Shown: one piece after another, positions 21,094 through 49,022 of the stretch
Numbering within the stretch: position 1 is the stretch's first letter
Layout of the letters: each line of letters begins with the position of its first letter
Assembly (NCBI GenBank): GCA_030141605.1
Contig: JAQGDQ010000378.1
Location: 156,501-220,500, forward strand
From: Tubiluchus corallicola
Lineage: Eukaryota > Priapulida > Priapulimorpha > Priapulimorphida > Tubiluchidae
Length of the DNA stretch: 64,000 nt
Direction of reading: 5' to 3'
The notes under the pieces: generated by a model
Told to the model about the DNA's origin: nothing
Seen by the model: only the letters and a program-made list of their open reading frames with translations
Databases searched by the model: none
Made by a program: the position numbers and the translations under genes

Positions 21094-21309
21094 CTACAAC
21101 TTGTTCAACATTTCGTATTTCTGTTTGATGTCCATGTTTGGATTCAGTCGTGGATCCCTCCTCTTCTTCGATGTGAGCTGTGCTCGGAGCTGTTGAGCAC
21201 TGAGCTGGAACACGTCACCGTCCGCCTGCGGTGCTGCAGCCGGTGGTGGTGTCGCTGCGGGTGCGGTCGCAGCTGGTGGTGGTGCTGATACTGTTGTCTG
21301 ATCATTTCG
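21094..21309 (-). CDS. NHERF1-like: Scaffold exon 20: Pro/Ala linker and ezrin-binding-like tail
   Basis: A 71-residue end: a Pro/Ala-rich linker (SAPPPAATAPAATPPPAAAP), then VFQLSAQQLRAQL, a basic KKRRDPR and the final MDIKQKYEMLNKL before TAG. The last 13 residues align without gaps with the C-terminus of NHERF1 (M-D-x-x-K-K/x-x-E-x-x-x-N/x-L pattern), the helix that docks on the ezrin FERM domain. Confidence 0.88.
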   Translation of the reverse strand, partial: RNDQTTVSAPPPAATAPAATPPPAAAPQADGDVFQLSAQQLRAQLTSKKRRDPRLNPNMDIKQKYEMLNKL

Positions 21310-24300
21310 CTATAAAAGAAAAGAATAAAAAACTCAAACAATTAAATTGCATTAATAAGAAGAATAAAGAAACACAATTGTCAACCTGAATTGGTGTGAC
21401 AAGCATGCGTCAATGAGTGCGCAAAGGCACACATTACTCAAATGTGTTTGGGCACTGTTAACACAAACTGTTACCTAATAACTAATATCACTTTCATAGC
21501 TTGCAAATATTACAGTGTATAAAAATACACACTATATGCAAAAAATATACTATATAGTAGTGTTGCTCCGGATACACTTTTTTTGCTGGGTAGCGAATAC
21601 CGGATATCATCAAATATTTCCTCACGTTGACTTCGGTTAGCTAAATTCGGATGGTAAATGCGGATCGGTTCGGATAATGAAAAAATAGTAAATTGTTTGC
21701 AAACTTTAGCTTTTTCATTTAGTCTGTCAAAAAAAGACTATCATCTTAAAGGACATACCCCGAAGACACACCGTGTTATCACACACAAACGAAAAAAGAT
21801 GTGTGTAGAATTTTCGTCTTGAAAACACAAACATAGGCAATATTTTTAGTTATTTTCGGCTGTTATTCGAAAACGGTTTTCAATTGCACATTACAAAAAC
21901 CAGATAGCGAATATTTTCTAATGTCAAATTTTTATAACTACCGGATAATATCGGATACGAATACTTATAGAATTTCGAGAAATATCACCATTTTCGGATA
22001 CGAATCGGATATCCAGATCAACACTACTACATAGCAAGCGATGTTAGAGTGCATGACATTTTTCAAAACGTTCAACACGAACGGTAGCACAAATATAGGT
22101 GGATTAAATACCGCCTTTATTTACAGTAAAAAATACTACAAAACCACTTCAACTTGCGCTTAGTTACCGTATAAAACATTAACAAAAGCGTTGAAAAACT
22201 ATAATGAAATTAAACACAAGGTTTAGACATCGATTTGGTGCTGAACGGTGAAAAAACTGTAATATACCACCTATCACCAAAGATGTTTACTGCAAATGGC
22301 AAAAATTTGCAGATTTTCCGCTAAAAGCTTAAATTTTTAAAGAGTAGTGCACCGACAGAAAACACAAACACTCTTGGCAACAAACGACAAGCAAGAAACA
22401 TAAGTCATACGTATGAGAAAAGGCTTAAATTGCCATATTTTCACAACAAGCCTCAGTCACAATGACATACTAATGTACTAAACTGTGAAAGCTTTTTTGA
22501 GGAAGTTAACACATAAGCTGTTGCATACCAACTAAAAATATTACAATACATAAAAAATTACATGCTAAAACTACTAAGTTACTAAACTGCGAAAGCTTTT
22601 CCGAGGAAGTTTAAATTACCGCACCAATATACAGTTATTTTACAAGCAAAAGTGAATACTGCATACCTCTACCTCTGGTTCACCGATGAGTCTAGAGCCA
22701 GGTCTTGGTACAGGTGTTTTTATGTATTGAATATTTCCTAGGTCTTTGCTAACTTTGATGTCCCTAGAGTTGTAGTAACTGTCCGTAGCTTCGTCTACAA
22801 CCAGCAGTTTGGTTTCATCTGAAATGGCCTTGATCTTCTCTACAACCTAGGTAACAAAAAAATTATGGTTGTCACTGTCCAAAACTTCACGATGCCCTAG
22901 GTTGATAGATCTTTCCCGCCCATGTGTATTGTAAATTTATGATTGGTTATGTACAGATTAAACAATTACTTGTGGTGTATTAGTATTACCTAGTAATATA
23001 CTATTAACCTAGTTTCTATATGCTCATTCTTAATTACGTGCATATGAACTGCGCTTATATATAAGCAACAGATCTCAGTAACTGCCTGTGGTGTGTTATA
23101 CAATACTGGTTTTACATGGATATGAACGGATACACATTTTCCGAGGAGAATAAGAATTTTTTTTGAAATTGGGCAACTAAAACGTGGCGCCCCTCAAAAC
23201 TTTGGCGCCCTAGGCTACAGCCTAGTTAACCTATTGGCTAATACGCCACTGGTAACGGGAAGGTAAATTTGATGACTGTTTCTAGGTTTCATTTTGTTAC
23301 AAAATACTAACATTTAGTTTAAATATGCCATTTTGAATAAAAAAGTACCACTACAATACATACATGTAAGTGAATAAGAGTTTATCACTCCAGGTACTAA
23401 TATGAATTAGTGGTAAACGAAACAAAGCAGCATCATACAAAAACGAGAAAAAGTACAGAACGTTCTACCGTGCACCTGCGTCGGCTTAATAATAATTCTT
23501 TAAAGTTCAGAAGAGTATCATACGACATAAGAAAGCACAGGATTTTATCGGCTTACTGGCCAACTGGCATGGTACATGAATCAAGGTTGAACAAAGACCA
23601 ATGCAAAAAAGTTATTATATCTCCTTGTTTAAAAACTGTTATCTGATTTATACTGTCAAAGGCCAGACAGACTTGGCAGTTTCGGCATTACTGTGTTCCA
23701 TGGTCTTCCCTCATATGCTTGTATTATATGTGGACAGAATTCGTGTAAATTACACAAAACATTAAGGCCACATGAAAACGGTTAGAAATCTCTGCTAAAA
23801 ACAAGAATGTGGAATGGCCTACATTATGAGATTGAGCCATTACCTGTGAGTGTGTACAGTGCTCCACGTGGAATGGCCTACATTATGAGATTGAGTCATT
23901 ACCTGTGAGTATGTACAGTGCTCCACGTCGAATGGCCTACGTTATGAGATTGAGTCATTACCTGTGAGTGTGTACAGTGCTCCACGTGGAATGGCCTACA
24001 TTATGAGATTGAGCCATTACCTGTGAGTGTGTACAGTGCTCCACGTGGAATGGCCTACATTATGAGATTGAGCAATTACCTGTGAGTGTGTACAATGCTC
24101 CACGTTTTCTTTATTCACTTCAATGATGCGATCACCTCTCTTGAGCCCGGCAAAATCCGCAGGACTGTCGGCATCAATGTCTCCCATGAATTCTCCACGG
24201 CCGGCCTTGTCTGCCACCAAGCTGAAGCCAAAGCCCGGGAAATCCGGCCACTTGCAGACGTGGCAGTAGCGAGGCTGGGGTGCATCCGACGGGATGTTTG

Positions 24301-27300
24301 CTTCTCGTGGCGCTAATGTCTCCGGCGCACGATCCTAACAAGCAGCAAAGCAGTTTAATAACGGCAATGTTAGGATAAGACAAGCCAATTACCATGTCAG
24401 GCAACAATTGAAATTGAAAAAAGATAAAAAACAACATAGAACATTTTCAATATCAACGAATATCCATAGAAAACGCAGATTTTTCATTACCAACTTGATA
24501 ACGCACAGTTAAAAATGATTTTCTCTTACTGCACTGGAAAAACTATGAAAACCCATTAGTACCACGGCTATTTATTTTTTTCTGTTATTTGAGAAACTTA
24601 TTTAGTGTGCGACATGTAATGAATTCGCACATGTGCCAGATAACAACTTGTGCATGAAAGAGAAAAAATAATTCACTATGGTACCATAGGGCTTCCGTTG
24701 GAAACTATTGTGAATTTATATTCATGAATGTTAAATAACTTAAATACACACAAAAAATATAAAACTGAGCAACATTACAGCAAAGCAGATATGTACATAA
24801 ACTAATGATTATCAATGTAATACGTAAAAAATAATTTAGAAGTTATTAAACGTAATCCATTACCCAAACAAATTCAATTGCTGATAAAATGTGATTTAGT
24901 ACATAGTAACACAAAACTAGCTAACAGATAGTTGCGGTGACCTTGAACAGTTAAATACACCCTTATTTTAACTACACCACCAATTTTACATAGTATCTAG
25001 TAAAAAAGACAGAAAATTGTTACAATTGTTTATGTTCTACAATCCAGTTACACCCAAAACATTATAAATGAATACATGTAATCAGAAAAGACAAATGAAC
25101 ATATAAAAGAGGAAAACGCCATCGATATGAAGTAAAAGAAAAATGTCGCTGAAGAAAGAAATGAAATTTTCTTTTTGCTAATTTGATGTTCGCAGCTCTT
25201 CGGAGCAAATAACATTCATTGCAGCAAGTACAGCTCAGAACAGCAAGAAATGATAATGGCGTTTGAATGTATGGAAAATTGAAAGGCAAGCTTTCTCTAA
25301 AACGATTAGTCTGTAACAAGGCTAGCGTAAGAGATAATGGAAAACTCGCTAACTTAAATAAGAAATGTAAACATTTTACGATTGCTAATGCTTGCAGGCA
25401 TCACAATGGATACCGTTATGGACTAGCGACTTCAAGGACACAAATCCCTCGGGGCAAGAAATAATGCCAAATATCATCTTCAAATTTGTGCCAGGTATTT
25501 AGTTCAATACTGAAATCGTGGTACTGCTAAAAACATAAATGATATCATTACAGGATTAAAAAAAACCATGGTTTTTAATTTAGCAGTATACCTGTATTTT
25601 AAAAACACTTTACAGAAAGCATAGATGTAAAAAAAGCATTAGTGAATTGAAAGGTCTTCAGAAACTGTGCGAGATTGAAACAGAGTTGTTCATATCTCAA
25701 GTACATTGCAAGAGTTCAGCCAGCCAAAAATATGTAATACGAGAACTATTAAACAGGTTTTGCTGAGATTAATATAACACACACTAGACTAGAACCTGCC
25801 ATAGTTAGCATGTTAAGTTCTGAAAATTGTTAAGTTTTAAGAAAACTAATGAAAAATGTTAAGTTCTGCCAGATGAGACCTTCCAAACTTTGGCAGTCGA
25901 CAGAAGTCAATTAAAGCAGAAGCGGTTAACTTGTACAAGCCATAAGAGAGAGAGACATTTAAGAATCGCTGGGTGATATATAAGTTAGGTGATGGCCATA
26001 GCTACCTCAATTAGCTGTTCTTCATTATACTCATTGGCCGGTACGATAGCGGAAGCCGGTCGCAACAGCGGCGTCTCAAACACCTGTATGCCATGCAGTC
26101 TCGAAGTCAATGGAATCCTCTGACTTTTGTATGTCAGGTAAGTGTCTTCATCGGCAACAAGGAAAGTAACTGAGGTCGGACTTTGCTTTATGTACGTCTC
26201 GATTTCTTCGCAACTCCGTTTCTCGACATTAACCCCATTGACTTCAATGATAAAGTCGCCCTGGGCCAGACCACCGGCTTCCGCTGGACTGTAGGCGTCC
26301 ACTCTACCTATCATATCGATGCTTTGTGCCCTGTTGTACACCAGACAGAATCCGTACCCTTCAAAATCTGGCCACTTGTGGATCTTGCAAAGTCTAGGCA
26401 CGTTAACAGCCTCTTCTGCAGGCAGTATGTTAGTAACAGGAACCTTGCAAAAGCATATTGAAGATAAGAAGCAAATACTTACTGAGTTTTATTAATGCAT
26501 GCATTCCCAAGCAAAGTAACATGCCACATCCCTATGCAGCAGCCGGCAAGATATACCTTTCCCTGTATGACTATAACATTGGCCTATACAGGTCAGTTTG
26601 TAAGAAATTAATCCCTATATTCCCACGAATCTTGGCAGAGGTAATAATACAAACAAGTATACATACAGACATACTTGTTAGCCCAAGTGCATATTTACAG
26701 ACCATAAATACTGGAAGGAAGTGTAGCGTCATATAATATTATAATTTAGCAGTTCATTACACCTATGATATTCACACGGGATTGTTTGTCATGTTCACAA
26801 ACAAGCAAAAGGTCACTTCTGAATCATGCGGCCACACACCATCCCATTTTATTCCTGTGATTCTCTTTGGAAGGCAATTTATACATAGCTCAAAGTGGAA
26901 TATGACCCAAAATATCATGTAGTAAATGACATACGAAGTAGTGCGCTCATTGCTTTATTGTATTTATATGCATTTTATATATGATTACAAAACAATGTAG
27001 TAATTATTTATACACCTCGTATCTTACAAAATAGTACAGCAAGATTTGTATAATAAGGTAAATATGCATTTTATATATGAATATGCTATGAAGAAATTAT
27101 TTACACATCTTGTATCTTACAATATAGTACAGCATTATTTGTACAATAAGGTACTTTACAGCTACTATAAATATTATAGTGCATAACAATTATATACAAT
27201 ATATTTGGTAGCTTTCAACCGTTCAATTTCTATGTGTAACAACTGTGCGATATCCTTTCTATACTAAGATATTATACATAATATATATGGCTACGTTGAA

Positions 27301-30300
27301 AAAGTGTTTAACTAATATACTGTATTAAAACTGCTAGCGTGCGGCGGTAAAATGGACTTCTAAATTCAAAGATTTCTGAATGCTTATCAAATGTATCACA
27401 GTCCAGGAGCAATACAGAACACATGAAATCTACAATAGCAAACTTTACAACAACGTAGCAACATTCCAAAATTCACTATCTGCTTCTCAAAAACAGAACT
27501 AGAAAACAGTGACTGGGAGTGGGATACCATGTAGTTCCATGTGATCCACATTCTTTGATTGATTCTACATCAACTTTTAGCCATGTACGAAAAATGTGCG
27601 AGAAAATGTCAACCAAATATACAACCTTTAATCATGTAAGTCCACCAGGTCAGTTCTTTTGAATTTGTCTTATTAGCAACAAATGTCGATAAAAGCACGA
27701 AGACAAAAGACAAATGTAGACAAAAGGCTCTCCAAGACCAGTAAAAATGTGGTGCTGTAAATCATCGACCGGAAAAAACAGCAAACATGGCTGCAAATGC
27801 AGCAGCTAGCGACAGTTCAATCTCTCAAATAGCAGCCTTTTCAACAAGTTAATCAAAACTGAAAGTTATATCCCACAATGAGGCAATACTCTAGGAGCCG
27901 AGAAATATAGAAAGTTTAGCATTGTTCACGGTATTATTTGCAATGTATGACATTGGTTCTACATACCCAACGAAAATGTAAACTAACTTAATGACATAAT
28001 CATGACATCATGACTCAAGTCATCATCATCTGATCATCTTACAACCCCAAGAAAACATTGAAAAAAAGAGTGTGAATTAAATCTCGAGAGTACGATGATC
28101 TTAATGCATCCCATAACTGTTACACTTTCATACGAATCAACACAAAAATTAATCAACGGATATTAAATGGGAAGATATGAAAATAATACAGAAACATTCA
28201 AGAATGTACGAACGAACATTATGTTTGACGACATGTGACGCCAAGACATTAAAAAACGCCTTGTGTAATTAAACGCCTGCAAAACACCATAAAAATGTAA
28301 TTAAATAACAGCAAAACACCAGCTAAACATCTCAATCTCAGTATTTACCAACACCAACAACAGTTACAACACCCGTCACCGATGCTAGTCACAACACAAT
28401 GTAATGAACATAGCCAATGCCCATTTCTATAGACGGCACATATACTAGAACTGTCAGTAATCTAGGCAATATCTATGACTGGATCTATGAAGCTGAAACA
28501 GCCAATATAAACCTTGAACAGAACGAGGCCCCTACCACATAACATACCGGTGCCTCCAATAATTCCACATTTCTCAACTGAGAGGTTACTTTGATGTTAC
28601 GCGAAGAATAATATTCGTCTGCTTCGGCGTCAACCACCAGGAAAACCACCTCGCTTGCATTAGCTTTAATTGCTTTAACGATGTCGAGATGCGATTTCCC
28701 GTCAATGTTGTCGTCATTAACCTCCACAATGCGATCACCAACTCGCAGGCCTCCGGCGTAAGCGGGACTTTCACTTTCGACCTTTTCAATATATTCAGCT
28801 TGCTTGGTTTTATCGTACTTAAGATTAAATCCATAGCCTTCATAGTTGTGCCACATGCAGATGGTACACTTGCGTGGTTTTGGTGCACCTTCAGCAATTT
28901 CACTTATTACCGACACTACCTATATTATTGAAAGCCTTATGTCAGAAACAATGAAAAATATAGGAGGAATAATTAAAATAAACTGAAAAGAAAACTCATA
29001 TATAATAAATAAAAATTTAATAAATATAAATAAAAATAAAATAGAAAGCATGCATAAAGAAAAAATTCTCAATTTTTCACTAGAAGCAACTTAACATTGA
29101 GCAGCACTGCATCTAGAAATTGTTATAAGCTGCTATAAGCATAACTCAGCATTTATTTGTAACACGAGAGCGAAAAACAGGATTGTTCTGCAAGCTTACT
29201 CTACTAACACACACAGCTAGCAGCGCAGGAGGATTGCAATACCTTACGCTCCGGTTCAGCAGTACCGGGTCTCGGAACAACCGTTTCCAAGTTCTCCACA
29301 TTCTTTTGTTTAGAGGTGACAACAATGCCAGCAGCCGAGTAGTATGATTCTGCCTTCTCATCGACTACTAGCAAGGCAACCATTGCGTCATCAGTCCTGA
29401 TCAGCTTGATCACTTCCAGATGAGATAGACCGCTAATGTTCGTACCATTGACTTCTACAATTCGATCCTCGTCTAGAAGACCTGCGCTGTGAGCCGGACC
29501 ATCCTCCTGGATTTGGGTAACTGTCTCCTGGTCTCCGGATTCGTCGTACTCTAACGTGAAGCCATATCCATCATAATCTGCCCACTTGTGAATGGTGCAT
29601 AAACGAGGCTTTGGCGCATCCTCGGCAATTTCTTTTACTGCCTCTATTATCTGTCTCCGAAGAACAAATAATGCTAAAGTTGTGTTAGTAAAAAGCAAAG
29701 CATAAAATAAACAAAAGGATAAACAAACAAATAAATAAAGCAAAGGAAAAGAAAAACTTGCTTTCTATCAACAGCTTTGCAAACATGCATAACAAAAACT
29801 GATTTTTTTATTAAAGTGAACCAAAATTGTTAGTAGGCATGGATTATGCTTGCAAAAAACAGATTACTAAAGATACATGCTGCCCCCTGCATTACCTAGT
29901 CGCTTTGGAACTCCGCTTTAAACAGCTTTTAAAAATTTGCAACATTTAAGATGAAAACTGCAAATACCTGCTCCGCTACCCTGGCAGGTCTAGACTCTGG
30001 TGTTTCAATTCGTTTAATATTTGGCAAGTTGGTGGTAACTGTTATGCCTCTGGATGCATAGAACTCATCAGCTTCTGGGTCAACTACAAGGAAAGTAGCA
30101 CGACCAGCGACCGTCTTGATAACATCGATGACCTCCTTATGACCTTTATCTTCAATATTTTGTCCATTCACTTCAACCACGCGGTCATTTGTCCGCAGTC
30201 CACCCGTCTCTGCCGGACTGTCTGCTTCAATGTCACCGATAAACTCCTGCTCTTTGACTCTGTCATACTTCAAATTGAATCCGTAACCCTCGTAATCCGG

Positions 30301-33300
30301 CCACTTATGAATCGTGCATAATCGGATTTCTGGAGCATCATTCAAAACCTCTTCTACCCTTTCTGCTACCTGACCAACAAAATAATGTTGAGAAAATAAA
30401 CACGATTATTTGTTAGTATGCAGCTCATACTAGAAGCTTAATGTCGACATCAGATTAAAAGATTATTTGACATGATAAATGTCAATTAGTCATTGCGCTT
30501 GTCAAGAAACAGAGAATAGTTAATCACTACTAATCTTTTTACATTTGTACATCTGAAAATAACTTTGAAAAAGAAGTGAATCATTGAAAAGAAAATTCAT
30601 AACCATGCGAACGGCGAATGTGATTTTTTTTGTGGTTGTACTCTACAAGACATTAGTTACGAAAAGCTAGCGACACAGTGTCTACAAACGATGCAGCTCG
30701 GCAGCTACAATGCCTCCTACCTTTTCTTTTATAAGAGGCGTTTCCAGTTTCTCAATATTGTCCATACTAGAAGTTATTGCTACACCACGAGAGGTATAAT
30801 ATGCAACTGTTTTCAGGTCAGCAACCAAGAACACGACATGGTCAGTGTTAGATTTAATGATGCCAACTATATCACTATGCGATTTGTCTTCTACGTTTTG
30901 CCAATTGACCTCAATCACACGGTCACCACTTTGCAGGCCACCAGATTCGGCTGGACTGCCCGATTCTACACTTCTGATAAGTTCGAATTTCTTATCCTTG
31001 TCGTACTGAAGGTTAAAACCGTAACCTTCATAGTTTGGAAGTTTGCGAATTGTACACAGACGAGCAGATGGTGCAGGACCCTTAAATGTACAAACGACAA
31101 AGAAATGCACAGTGTTAAAAGCACCGAAAGTTAACCCATCATAAATAATCTAATGCCATTGAAATGCAGTTATCAACAAATTTACTCACACAATCACCTA
31201 AAAATACAATCGTCTGTAAAGTAATAAGTTTAGCTGCTTCATTTAATTAAGCTTCATCCTAAAAAAGGTCTTCCAATAAACTAAAATAAACCGGTAACTA
31301 AAATATTCTGTATGTACAAGCAAACCGAAAACACCATTAACCTATAAAGAACTAATAATTAACATAGCTCACTATCGCAAATGTTATGCATGGTCGTTCT
31401 TGAAACGAAAATCAGATATCAGCAAAAATGTTGATAAGAGAGTTAACTGCAAACGATTTAATTACTAACACAAATAGCTTTACAGATGCCTGCAACACAC
31501 ATAGCTAAACAACATCACTGCTTAGAAGACGAGCACCACATTCAACCTCACTTGACAATTTTTGCCAGATCTTCTGCACCATTTATAACAAATGTCACAA
31601 ACCAATTTGTTATTTATAAAAGACTATTACTTAACTCTTTCATAAGAAACATTAAGAAACAGTAGCTAAGATATAAAAAGCAAATAATAATATAGGTAAT
31701 TTAGGCATTACTCGAGAAAGGTATCTTTGAGATTTAAGCCAAAAAATGGTGATTCTCAAAAATTGGGGCTGGAAAGACAAACATCGACCATGTATATAAG
31801 ATATGTGGCTGGCAAAAAGCTAACTGATCAAAACAAATCTCAAACAGACATTTTGCAACAGTGCACTTGCAAAGCCCCATATTGAAATACTTATCAAGTA
31901 ACTGAACGAGACAAAACTGTCGGTAAAGCACGAAGTACATCTCAGCTTTACTACAGGCAGACAGCATTTGTAACAAATGTCACAGCTAATGATTCGATCT
32001 CTAAGGAAGAGACAAGGAGACAGCAGAAAATATCGACTACAGGCTTTAACTACTAGCACACAACTGAAGAACACAAAAACCAAGAGATTTACAATGTCAT
32101 ACGAGAACATGAGCAACACAAGAGATCATGTGCCAACGGTTATTTCTAATCGTAACTACCAGACAGACAAACATAAAACATAAGACAGTACGATAAGCAC
32201 TGTTAAAAGTGGTGCCATACGCAAGACGAATACATCAACGTACCTCGGCCTCCCTAACTGGCGTCTCCAGTTTTTCGATATTTTCCATACCAGATTTTAT
32301 CGTGATACGACGAGCCTTATAATGAGCAATAGTCTTTGCGTCGGCAACCAGGAACACGACATAGTCGCTGTGAGACCTGATAAGGGCGACAATTTCCGTA
32401 TGGGATTCTTCCTCGACATTGCGACCATTGACTTCTATGACTCGATCGTCCGACCGAAGGCCACCGGCCTCTGCTGGACTTCGTGGTTCAACGTTACGAA
32501 TACTTTCGAATTTTTTGTTCTTGTCGTAAAACAGATTAAAGCCGTAGCCCTCGTAGTCAGGCCACTTGCGTATAGTACATTGTCGAACGGAGTGAGTAGG
32601 TGCCTTTAATATTGAAAACAAGGCTACTTCAATAAGGAGTGGGAAGAAAATATAAACACATTAAAGTATTATAATAGCCTCCTCATAATGTCTCATTTTA
32701 GCCGACAGAAGAAATGACAATTTTTTAATTTACTACTTTAATTTGTTTAAATTCACCAGTAGATATCGTTTACACCAAATTTAAAAAAAATGTTAATATG
32801 TCGAGATATTTTTACATACATTTCTTTATGTCTACAAAACCAATTGAAAAAGTTAGAAATATATGTTTAATAACAAACGGTACAATGCAACAACATGAAT
32901 TCTGAGCTATAACACGACAAGCTAACTAAGCCAGTTCTAGACAAAATATTCTTTAATTGTAACCTCATTTTGGTCATATTTGTATTAGTTATGTTTGTAT
33001 TAGTTATTTGTTTTAGCTGTTTGTTTTAGTTAATTAAAATTCAGGAGCTACTTCGCCTCATTTTGGTGCTGATGATCTATAATAATAAATTAAATCTATT
33101 CTCCTGAATCTCACAAAATGGGCAAAAGAAAACATGAAACTTTATCAGATCGTCATCGGAAAAATGGAAGGCATCAAATACTACGGTGACAATTATATAT
33201 GCATAACATACAGCATAAAATCTCGATACAATATGGTCAAAAGAAGCTTTGTACATTTTTCAACGCATTTTTAAGTCCCTGATTTTTCCACCATATTATC

Positions 33301-39300: not shown

Positions 39301-42300
39301 GCTAATTTGGCAAACTTTGCTGATTTTTTCTGCCATTAAATGACAGAAGCAGTTAGAAAATTCAGGCATGAAGCTAAAGTGACTCAAGATTGGAAAATTT
39401 GATAATCCTAAACTGAGATTTAAATTATAAAAAATACAGGCAACAAAAGTATGAAAAAACATATCCTCACCTGGACAACAATTCCGTCTGCATCACCATT
39501 TTCACGCGGGCGTGGCACGGGCGTGGCAATATACTCGATGTTGTCAAGTGCGCTAGAGATGGGAATGCCACGAGCCCTGTACTGCTCGTAAACGTCACTG
39601 CTGACAACCAACATTTTAGTTTCACTTGGATTCGATTTAATCTTGTTGACCACATCCATGTGAGGAAGACCCTCCACGTTGTCACCATTGACCTCGATGA
39701 CTCGGTCGCCCTTCCGCAACCCACCCATGTCAGCCGGACTGTCGTGGTCAACATCACCGATGAACTCCTGACTACTACTCTTATCATACTGGAGATTGAA
39801 ACCATATCCCTCGAAATCCAGCCATTTCCTTATGTGACAGAGTCTTGGGGCTGGCAGCGTGGAAACGGCAAGATCCGCAATGGCAGCTGTTACCGCCTCC
39901 ACCTAAATAAATAAGAGACAAGCCACCCTAAATACCTAAATTTCTGTGTACAATTAGTTTCTAGAATATCCACAAGATTTTTACCACCCCTTCAAATGTG
40001 TTGCATTTGTCCCATATAAGCTCACCCCAATTTCCAAGTAAGAAGCTGATTTTCTGTATTTAATGTTCAAGGTTAGTCCCTAAACTTCACTTGAAGAATG
40101 AAATGTCTCATGACAATGTTAACAGCAACATAATAAGCTTGTTGGTGAAATTACTGCAAACATTGGCAGATCACAATTGTACGTGCTGTAAATACGACAA
40201 TTCAACTAATAAGACACCAAAGCCGAAACTGTGCAAAAGAATAATTACGTAAGTATTTGAACGGAAATTTCAGAAACATTAGCTAAGCAAACTAACACAT
40301 AAACTATAGGAATTGAACAAGATTGTCCCAGAGTTGTAGCAAAATGGTAAGTGGTATAGTGAAGACATCTAAGAGAAGAGCAGCGAGGTCATGAAGAATG
40401 TCACTTCAAAGTGGCACAGAAACACAACGTTGACAATGTACCCTTACTTTCGTAGGTTCACTTTCCTCGCTCTGCAGCGATTCGGGAGCTGAGGGCGCAT
40501 CACCACCCTCAACGTGGACTTCACCAGTTTCAGCAGAAAAGGACCCATTTACCTGGCCGGGCCGTGGTCGGGGTACGGGCGTCTTGATATACTTGATCAC
40601 CCTCATCGAGCCGTCAATGGGTATCCCGCGTGAATGGTAGAAACTATCTGTATCTCTGTCGACGACGAGCAGCTTGGTCTCATGAGGAATTGCTCGAATC
40701 TTGTCTACAACCTGTTGAACAAAGAGACAATGTTTAGTGCAGCAAACAACCATGAACATCCACACAAAGACTTATTACGACTGAGAGGGAGCGTTATAAC
40801 AGCTGCACTCCATTGCTGCAATTGGTTGAGCAAAAATCTTTGCACAAAAGCATCTCAGTAAAAAACTCTAAACATTTAGCAAACAGCAAATTTCAAACTA
40901 AATGTGCCGTAAGCAAAGATCTACTTCAAATGAAAATAAAGATAAAAACTAAAGATTAAAAAAAAAGATATACTAAAGATGGCAACTACTGTCGCAGATT
41001 TCAGCCGCTGAGGCACAGGGGTATGACTGACAGAAATATTTGGTTAATTGCTATCTTTAGTATACTAGTAGCATAGTAACTCCTTTCTTTTTCTATTTCA
41101 ATTCCAATTTATTTAATGCATGAACAAACGAAGCTCTTCATAAGCACCTTAATAAAGTACAGTCACATCTCTTTACACCACAGCTTTGGACATTAAGTGA
41201 GTCTGACATTACAAAGAGGTGCATTAATACATACATGTCTATGCAAATATAGGCCAAAAATGTGGGCGTTAAGCAAGGTCGGCATTAGAAAGGCGGGGCA
41301 ATATAACTGTACATAGCATTCAGTTAGTTTGATAAATTTACTGTTTCATAGTTTCATCAGGAACTATGACTAAGCATTTGCATGTAAACAAGACATAAGA
41401 GAAATCAAAAAGTCATTCTTACAAATGGTGTGTAGAAATGAGAGCATCTTAGGTTAACATTTTAAAAAGCTTACACAAGGCTGTACTTTGTAGACTACAG
41501 TCAATCAGTACGCAACCAGTAAAGTACCAAAACACATAAATGACTGACATTTTCAAGTTTTGCCGCATCAGATAGCAAGGGTGTACATCAAGTAGCTATC
41601 ACACCAACACAAATGTCAAATCAAATATAAATATTTACAAGGTAAACAATAAACTGCTTCTTGTTTACAAAGTGAAATTTTATTTGTCTGCAGGCAAATT
41701 TGATTTCATTATGGCACTTCACAATCCATCATTTTCCGCTATTTACGTTTCAGTTTTCCGCTTCCACTATTCTTCCTGTTAGGTGAAGTAATTACGTCGC
41801 CATCGAGTTCACAGCTGGAATAACAGGGATTAAGGAGACGATTAGGGATTTAATGTAATTAGTAATCTGTTTAAACAACTGACAGTCATATGTGGCCGAG
41901 CAGGAAACAGACCACCACACTGGCAGCCCTCTCAACTGTGTCTGCACACATATTCTAGGAGGACAACCAGGAACTTGTTACGCATGTTGTGTGCAATGGG
42001 GCAAATGCAGGCAATAGATCCACATTACAAATGCAGACCAACATTAAAGGACATTCAGTTCTAGCATTCACTGAAATTTTTTTTATCGTATCCTTGCATT
42101 AATTAAATTCATCCTTCATCATTCTTTGAGCACTGGGACACTTTAAACTTTTAACTCTGCCACAACATTTGACGTAAAATTCAAGGTAATATGATGAATG
42201 TCTGCCACAATATTTGATATAAAATTCAAGGTAATATGACGAATGTATCACTTGCGTATTTTGTTTGATAACTCAGTATTGGCCAACAAATGCATTTTGA

Positions 42301-45300
42301 CAGATAAACGTAACGCATGAACACCCTTTTGCTAAACAGATTACTCATGAGTTTATTCATCGGCTGTTTGAAGTATCTTGCGTACTAGACAGTAGGTTCT
42401 ATGATTAAGACCTGTTTTACACTTGTCTCACATAAGCCTCAGTGTTGCATTCAACAACAAGGATCTACATCAGATAAGCACTTAAATGTAGGGAATTATA
42501 GAGAGCTTCAACAACTGCGTAATGTGTAAGATAAAGACCCAGTAAAAAATAGAATGAAAGACTGCAACGTTTTAGATGTTTCCGAAGATTTTCTCAACAT
42601 ATGAGTTTTTTGTATGATGTCGGACATCAGGCAGGGGTAAGGCGAGCCTTAGAAAGCTACTTAATAATCCTAACTGTATTATTAAAATTTTGACACTAAT
42701 AACTGTTTACCTTTTGTATAAAGAAGCAGATTGCTACACACTTCAGGCATTATAACTTAGTGCTACATTTGCAAATTAATATAATTCAGAATCCATGCAG
42801 CTTAAATTCATCAAACATAAGCTGTTGACGTTCATAAATAATAATAATTTATCGCATGTGTAAAACGCATTAACATTAAAATAGACAAATACATTTTACA
42901 TACACGAATCATACCATAACATACATACATAAACACATAAACAGAACATAAATACTAGATTATTTTAAACTTCAAACTTACTTCACCCAGCAAACTACAA
43001 ATTACAAATAGAAATTTACAACATAGCTGAAGAAAAACAACACAAAAAATTAATATATTTACACTACAAATAGTAAAGCTGTGTGGCTCAGGAGACCTAA
43101 AAATGGCAAAACAGCCGCATAAATAAAAGGTGATTAATTAAAATAAATTAAAAGATTTAACAAAGCTAAAATCGTATACATGTATATAAAATCGCTAGAA
43201 ATCAGCCCCCAAAACCAGTACTTTCAGTCCCTAATAAATTTTTAATTAATTAAAAAGGCAATTAAAGTTCTAAGAAATGATTTGTAGTTGTCAACATTGG
43301 TCATTCTATGTGCATAAAATGGTAAATTGTTCCATAATTTTGGTGCTGCTACACAAAAAAAAACTATGAAATCCATACATGACTAGATTACAACACGGGT
43401 CGGTACAACAAGAGTCAATGAGCTAATTGATCCAAGATTATTACCTGAGCATGAGGTAAATTCTCTACACACTCTCCATTTACTTCCACTATCCGGTCTC
43501 CATTTACCAGACCGGCCATGTCAGCTGGACTGTCCGACTCCACAGATCCGATAAACTCCGCCTGCTTCTCCTTTTCGTATTGCAGGTTGAAGCCGTAGCC
43601 ATCGAAGTCGGCCCACTTGACGAGGTGGCATAGTCGCACAATGGGGGCATCGTCCGGGAGCTCCTATAATTCCAATATGCAGTAATGTTTTATGCAAAGA
43701 AACAAATGTAACAACCTTGGCAAATACGTACTGTATGCCATTACCGCATAGCTCGAGATTAGTTTATTTTTCTCTCATTATGAGTGCAAGGTAATCAGTA
43801 CTAAACAAGACTGTTTGCAAGGTTAGTGCCCCTAGGAAAGTTACACAGTTACTGGCCCAGACTTAAGAATGCTGGAAAACTACTGACATAGTCCGTTCAC
43901 TGCTGCATTAAATGCATTATGTGGAAACTTCCATTTAACTTCTATTGCCAGATATTTCCATTTTTAAAATCAATCAAAAACAGAAAATCACACTTTTTAA
44001 TGTAGATAAATTGAAAAAAATTGGAAATTTGTAGGAAAATAAAAAGGAAAGAGTTTACAATTCCCCACACAATTTAAATACCCTAGTCCTAATTCTAACC
44101 CTAACGCAAAGTCTAACTATAATTTCGTTTCACGAACTAATTTCCTGTGTGTGTGGACAATTGTAAACTTTAGCCAAAAATTTTACAAAATAACAACTAC
44201 AAGAACTTTAGGTCTTTCATATTATTAATACTTTCACATCAGCTTAGAAGTGAGTGCCAGAGAAAAATTTTTAAATTTATAACAACATAAAAAAGCTATG
44301 GATAATATATCAATCAAAAACTACACTGCCTAAACCATTATAAATGCTGTAAAAGCCATAGCAGGTAAAAAAGATACCATCAATCTTACTATATCGCTAA
44401 TCTTGGCCATACAGTTAACAATGAAAAATAAAAGTTTTTCAATATCAGGGTCTAAGATTAGTGAACTGTCCTTCTTTTGCTCTAGTGGTTCATAAAACGC
44501 TTCGTGGGCAGAAAAACAAACTTGAAAAAAGACTACTTGAGCCGAGTATATCAGTGAAGTTACAAACATTTCAGGAATTTGTAATGATAAAGCTAGCAAC
44601 CATTGTATGCACAAGGACATACTTCAGAGCCATAAACCTACCTAGATGTTCTGACTTTTTTTATAACGGTTGTTTGCACAGCTACAGTAGCACGATGCCT
44701 TATCAGCTTTTATCCTGGACTGTGGGACAAAATAAATAATCAATTTTTGTGCAATCAGACATACTGACAGTAGGTCAACTGCATTAATGTTGGCATAATA
44801 ATCATTGTGGGGCACATGTGTAATGAACTACACTAGGCACAGGTGTGCTTGCAGTTATTAGCCAGATTTTTGAGTTATCATAGCTCACTTAATGTATGAT
44901 ATAATGAAAAAAGTGAATTAATAAGAAATTTGTTTGCAGTCCATATTATTTTCCATATTTTCGTTATCTTTATGTAGTGGTCTCAGTTACTGTACCCGAC
45001 AGTATAACCCAACGCCCAAATATAATCATGCAAAGCAGCTTCGTTGCTGCTCTTTGTTTTTTTGCTTGTTAAACAAGGCCTAAATTCAGATTACATTTTC
45101 TATATACAGCTTTAATTTAAATTTGGTAATTATTTTTTGCACATAAGTCTTAAATTTGCTATTATTAAAACTAACATACAAAGCAGAGTTTAAAAAAATT
45201 TGGACCGAGCAATCACGTAACATAGAATCATTAGAAACGAGCAAAACTGCACTTAAAAATGCACCGGTTCACAAATTTGAACATTCATTGTCTGTTTTGA

Positions 45301-48300: not shown

Positions 48301-49022
48301 CGATATTCAAAAATTAATAAATTGGAAATGTTTTGGGAAACTGAAGTTTCTGTAGCCCAAAAGTTAATTAGTAAAACTGCACAAGAATTTGCTTTTTCTA
48401 AGTACAAGTGTGTGATGTCATAATGTTATCAAATTGTTTGCACTCAAATGATGAAATGTTGAAGGTAAATGGAAGTTTAAAAAAATTAATAATGTGCAAT
48501 CTATAAAATACATTTTAAAAGCATTCTATAGTCTATGACAAATTACAATGGATGTGATTTCAAAAACGTATAGAAAATGCTACAACTTTTGTCTCCAAAA
48601 TAACAAGACAACTGTAGTCTTATACATACCCTAATTTCATGATTGACTGAGCCTGGTGTTTCTGGTGTGGACAGCAAGAGGACATTATTCTGTGTTCCTT
48701 TTACGACAATTTTTCTAGCTTTGTAGTACTCGTCCGTGGCTGTGTCGACCACCAACAACTTGGCTTCATCGGGAAACTGTTTAACTCGTTCCACGACCTG
48801 CCGGTGGTTCTCGTTGGCGATGTTGATGTCGTTGACTTCAACGATGCGATCCCCGGCTTTTAAGCCGGCCGCTTCGGCAGGTGAACCTGGGTCCACTTTT
48901 CCGATGTACTGCCCAGGCTTGGACTTGTCAGCACGCAGGTTAAATCCATATCCTTCGTAGTGTGACCATTTTACAATCCGGCACATGCGAGGTGCAGGCG
49001 CATCAGGAGGAATATCTGCCAT
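21094..49022 (-). CDS. NHERF1-like: Giant NHERF-family scaffold: 17 PDZ domains plus C-terminal ezrin-binding-like tail (20 coding exons)
   Basis: Coding exons in transcript order: 49022-48630, 43663-43445, 40711-40448, 39902-39471, 38125-37724, 37204-36827, 36362-35994, 35614-35255, 35082-34723, 34550-34191, 34001-33633, 32603-32244, 31080-30721, 30369-29968, 29650-29243, 28919-28548, 26443-26006, 24334-24080, 22846-22667 and 21309-21094. They give 6,897 bp, or 2,298 residues, and all junctions are phase 0. Each PDZ unit begins R-x-C-x-(I/V/L)-x-(K/R), carries the NHERF-type loop GYGF (GFGF in PDZ17), then SPA..GGL, D-R-(V/I)-(I/V)-E-V-N, and an alpha-B helix starting with His in 16 of 17. 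The tail MDIKQKYEMLNKL resembles the NHERF1/2 ezrin-binding helix. NHERFs link membrane transporters and receptors to ERM proteins and actin under the apical membrane. The family assignment is strong. Possible alternative isoforms and 5' UTR exons are not resolved. Confidence 0.93.
21558..22026. mobile_element. hAT-like MITE in the scaffold's last intron
   Basis: A 469-bp element beginning TAGTGTTG and ending CAACACTA, with subterminal CCGGATAC/GGATATCC repeats in opposite orientations. It is flanked by CTATATAG and CTACATAG, an 8-bp duplication with 7 of 8 matching. No transposase. Confidence 0.82.
22667..22846 (-). CDS. NHERF1-like: Scaffold exon 19: C-terminal half of PDZ17
   Basis: It starts VVEKIKAISDETKLLVVDEA and ends IQYIKTPVPRPGSR, then EPEVE. 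It is very similar to exon 3, the equivalent half of PDZ2. Confidence 0.93.
22969..23251. mobile_element. Possible hAT-like remnant
   Basis: The right end ATACGCCACTG read in reverse gives CAGTGGCGTATTAG. A similar GTGGTGTATTAG occurs at 22972. The target duplication is not recognisable, so the limits are approximate. Confidence 0.42.
23811..24105. repeat. 59-bp minisatellite, five copies, overlapping an exon end
   Basis: Five units start near 23811, 23870, 23929, 23988 and 24047. Each unit (minus strand) holds the last ~26 bp of exon 18 (GTGGAGCA-TGTACACACTCACAG) plus a GTAAT donor and 30 bp of intron. Copies differ by only a few bases. Confidence 0.93.
24080..24334 (-). CDS. NHERF1-like: Scaffold exon 18: N-terminal half of PDZ17
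   Basis: It encodes PRYCHVCKWPDFPGFGFSL, SPADFAGL, DRIIEVNKENVEHCTHSQ. The loop is GFGF, unique in the protein. The exon end and donor are one unit of a 59-bp tandem repeat that extends into the intron. Confidence 0.93.
24335..26005 (-). other. Scaffold intron between PDZ16 and PDZ17 exons
   Basis: 1.67 kb, AT-rich. I see no exon or repeat I can name in it. Confidence 0.6.
26006..26443 (-). CDS. NHERF1-like: Scaffold exon 17: PDZ16, lacking the alpha-B His
   Basis: It encodes PRLCKIHKWPDFEGYGFCL, SPAEAGGL, DFIIEVNGVNVEKRSC, then EEIETYIKQSP. The alpha-B position that binds a Ser/Thr hydroxyl in class I PDZ domains is Cys instead of His, and D-R is D-F. I chose the acceptor gcaag at 26444-26445 because it keeps phase 0. 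Confidence 0.9.
26444..28547 (-). other. Scaffold intron between PDZ15 and PDZ16 exons
   Basis: 2.1 kb without a recognised exon. It includes the 96-bp imperfect tandem duplication listed separately. Confidence 0.6.
26966..27157. repeat. 96-bp imperfect tandem duplication
   Basis: Two units begin ATATGCATTTTATATATGA at about 26966 and 27062. Both contain CTTACAA-ATAGTACAGCA followed by GTA(T/C)AATAAGGTA. Confidence 0.8.
28548..28919 (-). CDS. NHERF1-like: Scaffold exon 16: PDZ15
   Basis: The lead VVSVISEIAEGAPKPRKC resembles that of PDZ14. It then has GYGFNL, SPAYAGGL and DRIVEVNDDNIDGKSH, and ends LLEAP before GTATGT. Confidence 0.94.
29243..29650 (-). CDS. NHERF1-like: Scaffold exon 15: PDZ14
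   Basis: The lead IIEAVKEIAEDAPKPRLC precedes GYGFTL, GPAHSAGL, DRIVEVNGTNISGLSH. It ends VPRPGTAEPERK. Confidence 0.94.
29968..30369 (-). CDS. NHERF1-like: Scaffold exon 14: PDZ13
   Basis: A short charged lead (VAERVEEVLNDAPEIRLC) precedes GYGFNL, SPAETGGL and NDRVVEVNGQNIEDKGH. It ends RIETPESRPARVAEQ. Confidence 0.94.
30721..31080 (-). CDS. NHERF1-like: Scaffold exon 13: PDZ12
   Basis: It encodes GPAPSARLCTIRKLPNYEGY, SGSPAESGGL and EVNWQNVEDKSHSDIV. It belongs to the PDZ7-10 subfamily although PDZ11 intervenes. Confidence 0.94.
32244..32603 (-). CDS. NHERF1-like: Scaffold exon 12: PDZ11
   Basis: It encodes VRQCTIRKWPDYEGYGFNL, SPAEAGGL and DRVIEVNGRNVEEESH. It keeps Gly in EVNG, unlike the flanking EVNW copies, and has the basic stretch KARRITIKS. 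Confidence 0.94.
33633..34001 (-). CDS. NHERF1-like: Scaffold exon 11: PDZ10
   Basis: Close relative of PDZ7-9 (GPAPSARLCTIRKVPDYEGY, EVNWQNVEDKSH), with HYDKDKLYE and SNDNEVIFLVAD as differences. It is three residues longer (VVAQIPEQ end). Its downstream intron differs from the 532-bp unit, so it split off earlier. Confidence 0.94.
34191..34550 (-). CDS. NHERF1-like: Scaffold exon 10: PDZ9 (recent duplicate)
   Basis: Third copy of the 532-bp-spaced unit. It ends KLETPLVEQE before GTATGC, the same donor as PDZ7 and PDZ8. Confidence 0.95.
34723..35082 (-). CDS. NHERF1-like: Scaffold exon 9: PDZ8 (recent duplicate)
   Basis: A 120-residue unit whose protein sequence is identical to PDZ9 as far as I can read. 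The exon and following intron repeat with exactly 532-bp spacing. Confidence 0.95.
35255..35614 (-). CDS. NHERF1-like: Scaffold exon 8: PDZ7 (recent duplicate)
   Basis: A 120-residue unit almost identical to PDZ8 and PDZ9. The visible residue change is SNSN for SNSD before HVVFLVADLKT. It starts GPAPSARLCTIRKVPNYEGY and has EVNWQNVEDKSH. Confidence 0.95.
35994..36362 (-). CDS. NHERF1-like: Scaffold exon 7: PDZ6
   Basis: It encodes PRECVIHRWPDYKGYGFAL, GPADAGGL and DDVVVEINGKNISGWSH. The D-R pair is D-V and EVN is EIN, so it is a diverged copy with an intact loop and alpha-B His. Confidence 0.93.
36827..37204 (-). CDS. NHERF1-like: Scaffold exon 6: PDZ5
   Basis: It encodes IRECLVRKWPDFSGYGFTL, SPADLAGL and NDQVVEVNGKNIVGAEH. 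The usual D-R before the beta strand is D-Q here, a change within a conserved position. Confidence 0.94.
37724..38125 (-). CDS. NHERF1-like: Scaffold exon 5: PDZ4
   Basis: An acidic lead (EIEKEPEASEED) precedes IRHCTIRKWPKYSGYGFTL. It has GPADAGGL rather than SPA, DRVVEVNETNVEGLSH, and the end RLETPEEQP. Confidence 0.94.
38771..38834. repeat. 32-bp tandem duplication
   Basis: AGCACCTATCTATGTGGTGC plus 12 bp occurs twice, perfectly, in the intron between the PDZ3 and PDZ4 exons. Confidence 0.9.
39471..39902 (-). CDS. NHERF1-like: Scaffold exon 4: PDZ3
   Basis: A whole PDZ domain in one exon: PRLCHIRKW, GYGFNL, SPADMGGL, DRVIEVNGDNVEGLPH. It shares the IATPVPRPR end with PDZ2 and PDZ17. Confidence 0.94.
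40448..40711 (-). CDS. NHERF1-like: Scaffold exon 3: C-terminal half of PDZ2 and acidic linker
   Basis: It starts VVDKIRAIPHETKLLVVDRD and ends the domain with IKYIKTPVPRPRPG. About 35 residues rich in Glu, Ser and Pro follow, the longest linker in the protein. The donor is CGAAA|GTAAGG. Confidence 0.92.
41160..41309. mobile_element. Possible short pogo-like MITE
   Basis: A 150-bp segment flanked by TA, starting CAGTCACATCT and ending ATATAACTG. Inner motifs CATTAAGTGAG and GCGTTAAGCAAG are related. The inverted termini match imperfectly. Confidence 0.42.
42156..42245. repeat. 45-bp tandem duplication
   Basis: TCTGCCACAA(C/T)ATTTGA starts both units, at 42156 and 42201, with four or so mismatches between units. 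Confidence 0.85.
43445..43663 (-). CDS. NHERF1-like: Scaffold exon 2: N-terminal half of PDZ2
   Basis: It encodes ELPDDAPIVRLCHLVKW, GYGFNL, SPADMAGL, DRIVEVN and LPHAQ, where it is interrupted in alpha-B by a phase-0 donor. The rest of the domain is 2.7 kb away in exon 3. Confidence 0.93.
43664..48629 (-). other. Scaffold intron between PDZ1 and PDZ2 exons
   Basis: 4.97 kb, the largest intron of the gene. It contains the long foldback element at about 45052-45999. Short open frames here show no PDZ signature. Confidence 0.65.
45052..45999. mobile_element. Foldback element with ~275-bp inverted arms
   Basis: The left arm (45052-45330) and right arm (45728-45999) are diverged reverse complements. 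Shared blocks are TGTTAAACAAGGCCTAAATT, ATAAGTCTTAAATTT, CACAAATTTGAACATTCATT and GGCCTTTTTCTG. A ~400-bp core lies between. The ends are approximate and no transposase is seen. Confidence 0.8.

Follow-up and report, generated by a model that had tools for sequence, protein, structure and literature searches.

MUPP1/MPDZ and PATJ are scaffolds with many PDZ domains (13 in MUPP1), as is the protein predicted here; their PDZ domains are of types other than NHERF, and they are not known to have an ERM tail. NHERF1/EBP50 and NHERF2 combine NHERF-type PDZ domains with a C-terminal tail, as the predicted protein does, but they have two PDZ domains and a tail with an MDW motif, whose profile fails on the tail described below. 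NHERF3/PDZK1 and NHERF4 share with it an array of NHERF-type PDZ domains; NHERF3/PDZK1 has four and, in the NHERF3 sequences retrieved, no such tail, and NHERF4 is not known to have one either. The ecdysozoan NHERF of C. elegans, NRFL-1, has two PDZ domains in its dominant form. Four PDZ domains in NHERF4/IKEPP and the existence of NRFL-1 splice variants are reported in one paper (PMC3419730). Work on NHERF proteins has dealt largely with the two- and four-PDZ vertebrate proteins and the two-PDZ worm protein.

The window, i.e. the whole 64,000-nucleotide stretch of Tubiluchus corallicola DNA analysed here, contains a gene of a known kind, NHERF, in what is predicted to be a new form, tailed and with 17 PDZ domains. 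With high confidence, it is read as a single invertebrate NHERF gene whose inner PDZ domains were multiplied as cassettes and which would give an ERM-anchored apical scaffold, probably of several lengths. With 17 PDZ domains, the gene falls outside the two-PDZ type of NHERF1/2. The preliminary description had contrasted NHERFs with two PDZ domains plus a tail and those with four and none, a background which is centred on vertebrates: tailed NHERFs with three (Ixodes, Daphnia), four (bivalves), seven (P0149) and 11 (Priapulus) PDZ domains were retrieved. Since the tailed NHERFs retrieved span from one to 11 PDZ domains, two PDZ domains mark the vertebrate members and not the tailed family. No described NHERF of such size was found among the literature matches listed, as covered by titles and abstract openings.

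Gene model and protein family

The gene model was rebuilt on the minus strand from 49022 to 21094 and consists of 20 exons, each with a length divisible by three, which together encode 2,298 residues, with the ATG at 49022, the final codon ending at 21097 and the stop codon TAG at 21096-21094. GT...AG borders were found in 19 of 19 introns and all the exon joins are in phase 0. Pfam PDZ (PF00595) was matched by 17 stretches of the predicted protein (E 1.9e-215), so that the exon number, the phase, the domain number and the length given in the preliminary description were all reproduced. Extra PDZ exons in the window were rejected, as the whole window, scanned in six frames with a profile built from the gene's own domains, gave only three matches outside the model, all at chance level (E 2.5, 9.4 and 17, respectively). 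The Rfam scan of the window gave no match.

PDZ1 and PDZ3-16 are each encoded by a single exon, the 14 exons of PDZ3-16 (of 17 PDZ domains) being symmetric, and PDZ2 and PDZ17 are each interrupted by an intron, at the same codon in both (between ...HAQ and VVDKI... and between ...HSQ and VVEKI..., respectively). All the exons lie on the minus strand. Exon 1 (48630..49022) contains the start codon and PDZ1 and is backed by the PDB match of PDZ1 and the domain tree. The first part of PDZ2 is in exon 2 (43445..43663), from which a paralogue without introns, located elsewhere in this genome (hereafter the retrogene), reads through into exon 3 (40448..40711; second part of PDZ2 and linker), and both exon 3 and exon 4 (39471..39902; PDZ3) align with the retrogene. 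Exon 5 (37724..38125) encodes PDZ4, whose last 39 residues are present in P0148, an intronless 3.1-kb contig (890 aa) from a near relative. Exon 6 (36827..37204; PDZ5), exon 7 (35994..36362; PDZ6), the near-identical tandem copies exon 8 (35255..35614; PDZ7), exon 9 (34723..35082; PDZ8) and exon 10 (34191..34550; PDZ9), and exon 11 (33633..34001; PDZ10) were modelled from the sequence alone, with comparison of the copies for exons 8-11. Exon 12 (32244..32603; PDZ11) is 92.5% identical in P0148, with which exon 13 (30721..31080; PDZ12), exon 14 (29968..30369; PDZ13), exon 15 (29243..29650; PDZ14) and exon 16 (28548..28919; PDZ15) were also aligned. Exon 17 (26006..26443; PDZ16) is absent from P0148. 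Exon 18 (24080..24334) and exon 19 (22667..22846), with the first and the second part of PDZ17, respectively, align with both P0148 and the retrogene, and exon 20 (21094..21309), with a linker, the ERM-binding-type tail and the stop codon, is covered by the P0148 alignment and the tail profiles.

For the domain tree, 61 NHERF-type domains were set against 12 outgroup PDZ domains of three proteins (PTPN13, lap4 and a MAGI-like protein). All 17 PDZ domains of the window were placed on the NHERF side of a branch with 97/98 support, as the preliminary description had proposed, and not mostly outside NHERF. The best PDB matches of PDZ1 were NHERF1/2, with NHERF1 2kjd as the top solved structure (E 4.1e-28), and PDZ1 is 68% identical to Priapulus, no more than to its best other matches (69%, P0092). 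PDZ1 fell in a group (98/86) of 12 sequences, mostly first PDZ domains of protostome NHERFs, which also includes P0149 PDZ3, Daphnia PDZ2-3 and Ixodes PDZ2 and leaves mammalian NHERF1 PDZ1 outside; the group was not recovered as such in a second tree containing the retrogene. PDZ1 was the sister of Priapulus PDZ1 with 97/78 support, and with 95/95 in the second tree. By this placement PDZ1 is a predicted orthologue of NHERF PDZ1 as represented by protostome PDZ1s. PDZ17 grouped with Priapulus PDZ11 (100/94), and PDZ2-17 of the window together with Priapulus PDZ2-11 formed a clade (96/86). The class-I alpha-B1 His is present in 16 of 17 PDZ domains and is replaced by Cys in PDZ16.

The tail was matched by the arthropod NHERF tail profile with E 9.7e-13 and by the mollusc one with E 3.6e-12, the best of 2,000 shuffles reaching 0.0044 and 0.0059, respectively; a chance match was rejected, since the shuffles score far below. 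With the vertebrate profile, built from 11 vertebrate NHERF1-type sequences, the tail scored E 6.9, no better than the shuffles (best 0.073), and a vertebrate-type MDW tail was not found and was rejected. The position of the vertebrate MDW Trp is taken by Ile, and by Ala in Priapulus. No Pfam match was obtained for the tail, and the PDB search with it gave no match beyond two at E 4.1. The arthropod and mollusc profiles thus support a putative ERM-binding tail of the protostome kind, which specifies the ERM-binding-like C-terminus noted earlier. The tail of C. elegans NRFL-1 binds ERM-1, and NRFL-1 without its last 28 residues gives only a residual ERM-1 interaction signal and loses its apical localisation, as reported (PMC8860247).

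Evidence for a single gene and transcript forms

In a PDZ search of the gene's own genome, 150 of 195 candidates were scored, and further tailed paralogues may exist there. By alignment and domain tree the retrogene corresponds to E1-E2-E3-E4-E18-E19-E20, with PDZ1, 2, 3, 17 and the tail all in one frame, its parent mRNA having lacked E5-E17; three residues at the E1/E2 join differ from the window gene. When the retrogene was tiled with whichever exon scored best at each place (E1, E14, E4, E4, E4, E4, E20), the result was set aside in favour of the domain tree and alignment, the odd tiling arising because the split exons E2, E3, E18 and E19 score below whole-domain exons. P0148 reads E5-E12-E13-E14-E15-E16-E18-E19-E20, starting inside PDZ4 and missing E6-E11 and E17; it is 84-99% identical to the window exon by exon, its joins fall at the predicted exon borders, and it may represent a retrocopy in the genome instead of cDNA.

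Nine of 19 junctions were supported by P0148 and the retrogene together. That two or more adjacent genes were wrongly joined would fit the long introns 1 and 2 (4,966 and 2,733 bp, respectively) and the other ten junctions, which come from sequence alone and are without transcript-like support; separate genes were nevertheless rejected and are regarded as very improbable indeed, on the one frame of the retrogene and on the Priapulus models, in which PDZ1 and the tail occur together. With the P0148 alignment as well, 49022-21094 looks like a single gene joining the N-terminal PDZ domain to the tail, as first proposed.

Of the NHERF reading, the NHERF-type domains, the protostome-kind tail and the one gene are supported, and the single 17-PDZ molecule goes no further than a prediction. 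No transcript with all 17 PDZ domains was found, each intronless form found being shorter; P0148 and the retrogene both lack many PDZ exons. The 17-PDZ protein may be merely a reading-frame maximum, with shorter NHERFs being made and the middle exons never all joined, an explanation with a real though lesser chance of being right: E5 is joined to E12 and E16 to E18 in P0148, E4 is joined to E18 in the retrogene, and in Priapulus the models X4 and X5 are each one PDZ domain short of X2. Against it, Priapulus X2, a predicted model, has 11 PDZ domains, so long forms are predicted in a relative, and the five middle cassettes E12-E16 are serial in P0148, which argues against mutually exclusive use. 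Values of dN/dS were 0-0.15 among PDZ7-10 and 12, by which the middle exons are judged to be under purifying selection; this also speaks against a mere frame maximum, although alternative use of the exons would give it too.

Origin of the inner array and proposed function

The best named match in the protein search was LOC106807044 of Priapulus caudatus (P0001-P0003), a predicted, uncharacterised, tailed protein with 44% identity. Like the window gene, it has an NHERF PDZ1 first, a last PDZ domain of the same kind, many inner PDZ domains and a similar tail, which ends in DMLNKL; its longest model retrieved has 11 PDZ domains, versus 17. Priapulus PDZ4 and 6-10 formed a clade of their own (96/88). 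Forcing PDZ4-16 of the window and PDZ1-5 of P0148 into one clade apart from Priapulus gave a tree which the AU test did not reject (p 0.225) but which lay 12.8 log units below the free one. The inner PDZ domains were, at least partly, multiplied separately in the two lineages.

In the mechanism proposed for the single NHERF gene, the inner PDZ domains would have been multiplied as phase-0 single-exon cassettes between the first PDZ domain and the last one with its tail, these ends being common to other protostome NHERFs. The PDZ domains would bind transporters, channels or receptors by their C-termini, and the tail would dock on an ERM protein at its FERM domain, by which the scaffold assembly would be tied to cortical actin at the apical membrane; an ERM-anchored apical scaffold is thus the likely function. 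Splicing would drop symmetric PDZ exons with the frame unshifted, and such cassette skipping is apparent in P0148 and the Priapulus X2, X4 and X5 models. Because PDZ3-16 are symmetric and can be skipped in frame, scaffolds of several lengths, with up to 17 sites, are probably made from the gene; with most PDZ domains on an exon of their own, cells may make scaffolds of different lengths, and scaffold valency may be set by splicing. We infer the ligand class, the ERM binding, the apical place and the regulated valency of the window NHERF.

A more tentative view, given slightly less than an even chance, is that of a length-adjustable ERM-anchored rail, in which splicing of the 14 symmetric cassettes would set about 4-17 sites, parallel inner arrays would have arisen in the two related lineages, and a short spliced form would have been frozen as a working intronless gene. 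Tailed NHERFs with 11-17 PDZ domains would be a natural case of valency changed by exon duplication, and perhaps by splicing, with still a single actin anchor in each molecule, and whether apical clustering scales with how many PDZ sites there are to each ERM anchor becomes a testable question.

Near-identical exons

Exons 8-10 are 98-99% identical and introns 8 and 9 are 94% identical. Such identities, by which two haplotypes could also differ, would suit an array of 532-bp units in which part is due to misassembly or to a repeat that varies between haplotypes, with a true PDZ number of 15 or 16. This is considered improbable, as PDZ7, 8 and 9 differ at few sites that are mostly silent (silent/replacement 2/1, 5/1 and 5/0), the similarity between introns 8 and 9 does not extend to intron 10, and every copy carries splice sites of its own. 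Elsewhere in the gene, a 59-bp tandem repeat of five copies (23809..24105) overlaps exon 18 at its end, together with the splice donor.

Gene model and exon design

By six-frame translation, the PDZ frames of the window were located on the minus strand (49022-21094), where 20 exons were joined via canonical splice sites, in phase 0 throughout and with introns of 172 to 4,966 bp that are GT...AG in all cases, to encode 2,298 residues followed by a TAG stop codon (21096-21094). Pfam recognized 17 PDZ stretches in the predicted protein, and the exon number, phase, PDZ count and protein length of the preliminary description, read from sequence only, were the same after the model was rebuilt. No PDZ above chance was detected beyond the model when a profile of the 17 domains was run against the whole window in six frames. 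A neighbour on the plus strand (5791-15922), containing Vps39 domain pieces (PF10366 and PF10367) at 5791-6060 and 15671-15922, lies downstream of the gene, and the neighbour upstream has an IQ-motif frame on the minus strand at 56890-57129. The genome carrying the gene amounts to 343.5 Mb in 2,344 contigs, and the window lies in it at C2305:156501-220500. One other contig of the assembly (C1390:1-5000, L010) looks bacterial from its frames, which were named by eye as resembling CtpA protease, 1-deoxyxylulose-5-phosphate synthase and TlyA.

PDZ1 and PDZ3-16 occupy one exon each, and the 14 domains PDZ3-16 (E4-E17) are symmetric phase-0 cassettes, so that the frame would be kept if they were dropped. 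PDZ2 and PDZ17 are both split by an intron, which falls at one and the same codon in the two domains, and may be marks of an older, shorter NHERF. The DNA of PDZ7, 8 and 9 is 98-99% identical (dS 0.026-0.066; dN/dS 0-0.15, from a small number of changes). PDZ10 and PDZ12, with dN/dS of 0.06-0.11 against PDZ7-9 and against each other, are older copies than PDZ7-9, and silent sites were saturated in the comparisons with PDZ11. A 59-bp tandem repeat in five copies (23809-24105) repeats the last part of exon 18 together with its splice donor, so several possible donors lie in a row. An inverted repeat of ~281 bp (77% identical) inside intron 1 (43664-48629) is perhaps an old transposon.

Relatives and domain phylogeny

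Protein searches were run in three length ranges, 7,985-7,993 candidates sharing most words being scored per search, and gave 27, 279 and 217 matches, of which the best 120 of 279 and the best 120 of 217 were listed. The best named match among those listed was Priapulus caudatus LOC106807044, with the models X2 (1,538 aa, 11 PDZs), X5 (1,407 aa, 10 PDZs) and X4 (1,414 aa, 10 PDZs); relative to X2, X4 lacks PDZ5 and X5 lacks PDZ8, as compared by eye. PDZ domains of tailed invertebrate NHERFs were counted by using the PDZ profile of the window, and one (e.g. Schistocerca, Argiope), two (Patella, Babylonia), three (Ixodes, Daphnia pulicaria), four (Mercenaria, Ruditapes) and seven were found, the last in P0149 (1059 aa), which comes from a 4,297-bp jgi contig, starts with Met and has an ERM-type tail. 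Counts of three, four and seven indicate that more than two PDZs plus a tail are not rare outside vertebrates. The 17 of the window were the highest NHERF count among the matches listed, and no NHERF of such a kind was described in the literature searched, mainly titles and abstracts. Large PDZ arrays are not confined to NHERFs, since the non-NHERF protein P0010 of Oikopleura has 16 Pfam PDZ stretches. In another retrieved protein, P0004 (1616 aa), a tetraspanin (residues 24-237) is fused to eight NHERF-resembling Pfam PDZ stretches.

A tree of 73 PDZ domains (98 columns; one short Gordionus domain left out) was constructed by using IQ-TREE. The NHERF-type domains, those of the window included, were set apart from 12 outgroup domains (97/98), which bears out the NHERF identity proposed earlier. 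Window PDZ1 belonged to a 12-row group (98/86) with the first PDZs of P0149, Mercenaria, Schistocerca, Daphnia, Ixodes, Limulus and Priapulus, together with the non-first P0149 PDZ3, Daphnia PDZ2-3 and Ixodes PDZ2; mammalian PDZ1 lay outside, and the group was left open by a second tree, to which the domains of an intronless paralogue were added. Window PDZ17 paired with Priapulus PDZ11 (100/94). Window PDZ2-17, the domains of the near relative P0148 and Priapulus PDZ2-11 formed one clade (96/86; 99/83 in the second tree), within which Priapulus PDZ4 and 6-10 (96/88) and window PDZ7-12 (96/59, weak in SH-aLRT) formed separate clades. These own clades indicate that the inner arrays expanded at least partly independently in each lineage, on 98 columns with many forks open; a single origin of window PDZ4-16 was not rejected (AU p 0.225).

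Intronless paralogue and exon junctions

The paralogue is an intact 957-residue open frame (942 residues from its ATG) on the minus strand of C2241:164449-167319 (L009:4450-7320) in the same genome. Its six PDZs come in two series: PDZ1, 2, 3 and 17 run into the first part of the tail exon, and a second PDZ3 and PDZ17 run into a complete tail that ends in IDMKQRCEMLDRF. In the second tree, its PDZ1 (100/94), PDZ2 (100/97) and PDZ3 (100/94) were sisters of their window counterparts and its PDZ17 was sister to window PDZ17 plus P0148 (100/94), with Priapulus outside the pair for PDZ1 (95/95) and PDZ17 (99/92). It appears to have arisen by retrocopying of an E1-E2-E3-E4-E18-E19-E20 mRNA, with the PDZ3-PDZ17 unit duplicated internally afterwards, and its source was probably a short splice form. 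If the inner array were younger than the retrocopy, the short mRNA would simply represent the gene as it then stood; the inner clade common to the window and Priapulus argues against such a later array, albeit on short domains. Against the parent gene, dN/dS was 0.07, 0.09 and 0.21 in three of the four domains (PDZ3 was unmeasurable) and dS was 1.2-2.3 or saturated, and dN/dS between its own two halves was 0.18-0.30. From its low dN/dS, the retrogene is probably functional.

P0148 (890 aa, from a 3,120-bp contig labelled lgn) tiles the end of E5 and then E12, E13, E14, E15, E16, E18, E19 and E20, with per-exon identity of 84-99%; in the alignment its joins fall at predicted exon borders, with indels of one residue near E14/E15 and two residues at E19/E20. 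The matching stretch of the window covers about 17 kb including introns, so the 3,120-bp contig is most simply a cDNA of a near relative; alternatively, it may be a genomic retrocopy, or derive from a relative whose gene is without the missing exons. Six joins are supported by P0148 (E12|E13, E13|E14, E14|E15, E15|E16, E18|E19 and E19|E20) and five by the retrogene (E2|E3, E3|E4, E18|E19, E19|E20 and, with three residues differing, E1|E2), so that 9 of the 19 junctions have support and 10 (E4|E5 to E11|E12, E16|E17 and E17|E18) are without transcript-like support.

C-terminal tail and proposed function

For the tail, profiles of the 45 C-terminal residues were made for 23 arthropod, 13 mollusc and 11 vertebrate NHERFs picked from the matches listed, Priapulus and P0148 being left out; the window tail, 2,000 shuffles and every frame of the window were then searched with these profiles. 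The arthropod and mollusc profiles matched the window tail with E values of 9.7e-13 and 3.6e-12 (best shuffles 0.0044 and 0.0059, respectively), and the vertebrate profile, at E 6.9, did no better on it than on shuffles (best 0.073). Where the vertebrate tail carries Trp, the protostome tails retrieved, as aligned by eye, mostly have Phe, Leu, Ile or Met; the residue is Ile in the window, Met in the retrogene and Ala in Priapulus. In C. elegans, NRFL-1 without its last 28 residues was reported to retain only a residual ERM-1 interaction signal and to lose apical localisation (PMC8860247). By analogy, the window tail may fairly be expected to bind ERM.

The alpha-B1 His, a mark of class-I PDZs, is present in 16 of the 17 window PDZs, and the GYGF motif is found in 16, with GFGF in one. 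Many class-I sites on a single anchor tail would fit a cluster-forming apical scaffold, whose valency per anchor might be varied by varying the cassette content. Splice variants of differing PDZ content would have a precedent in C. elegans NRFL-1, for which splice variants are reported, with the double-domain form predominating (PMC3419730).
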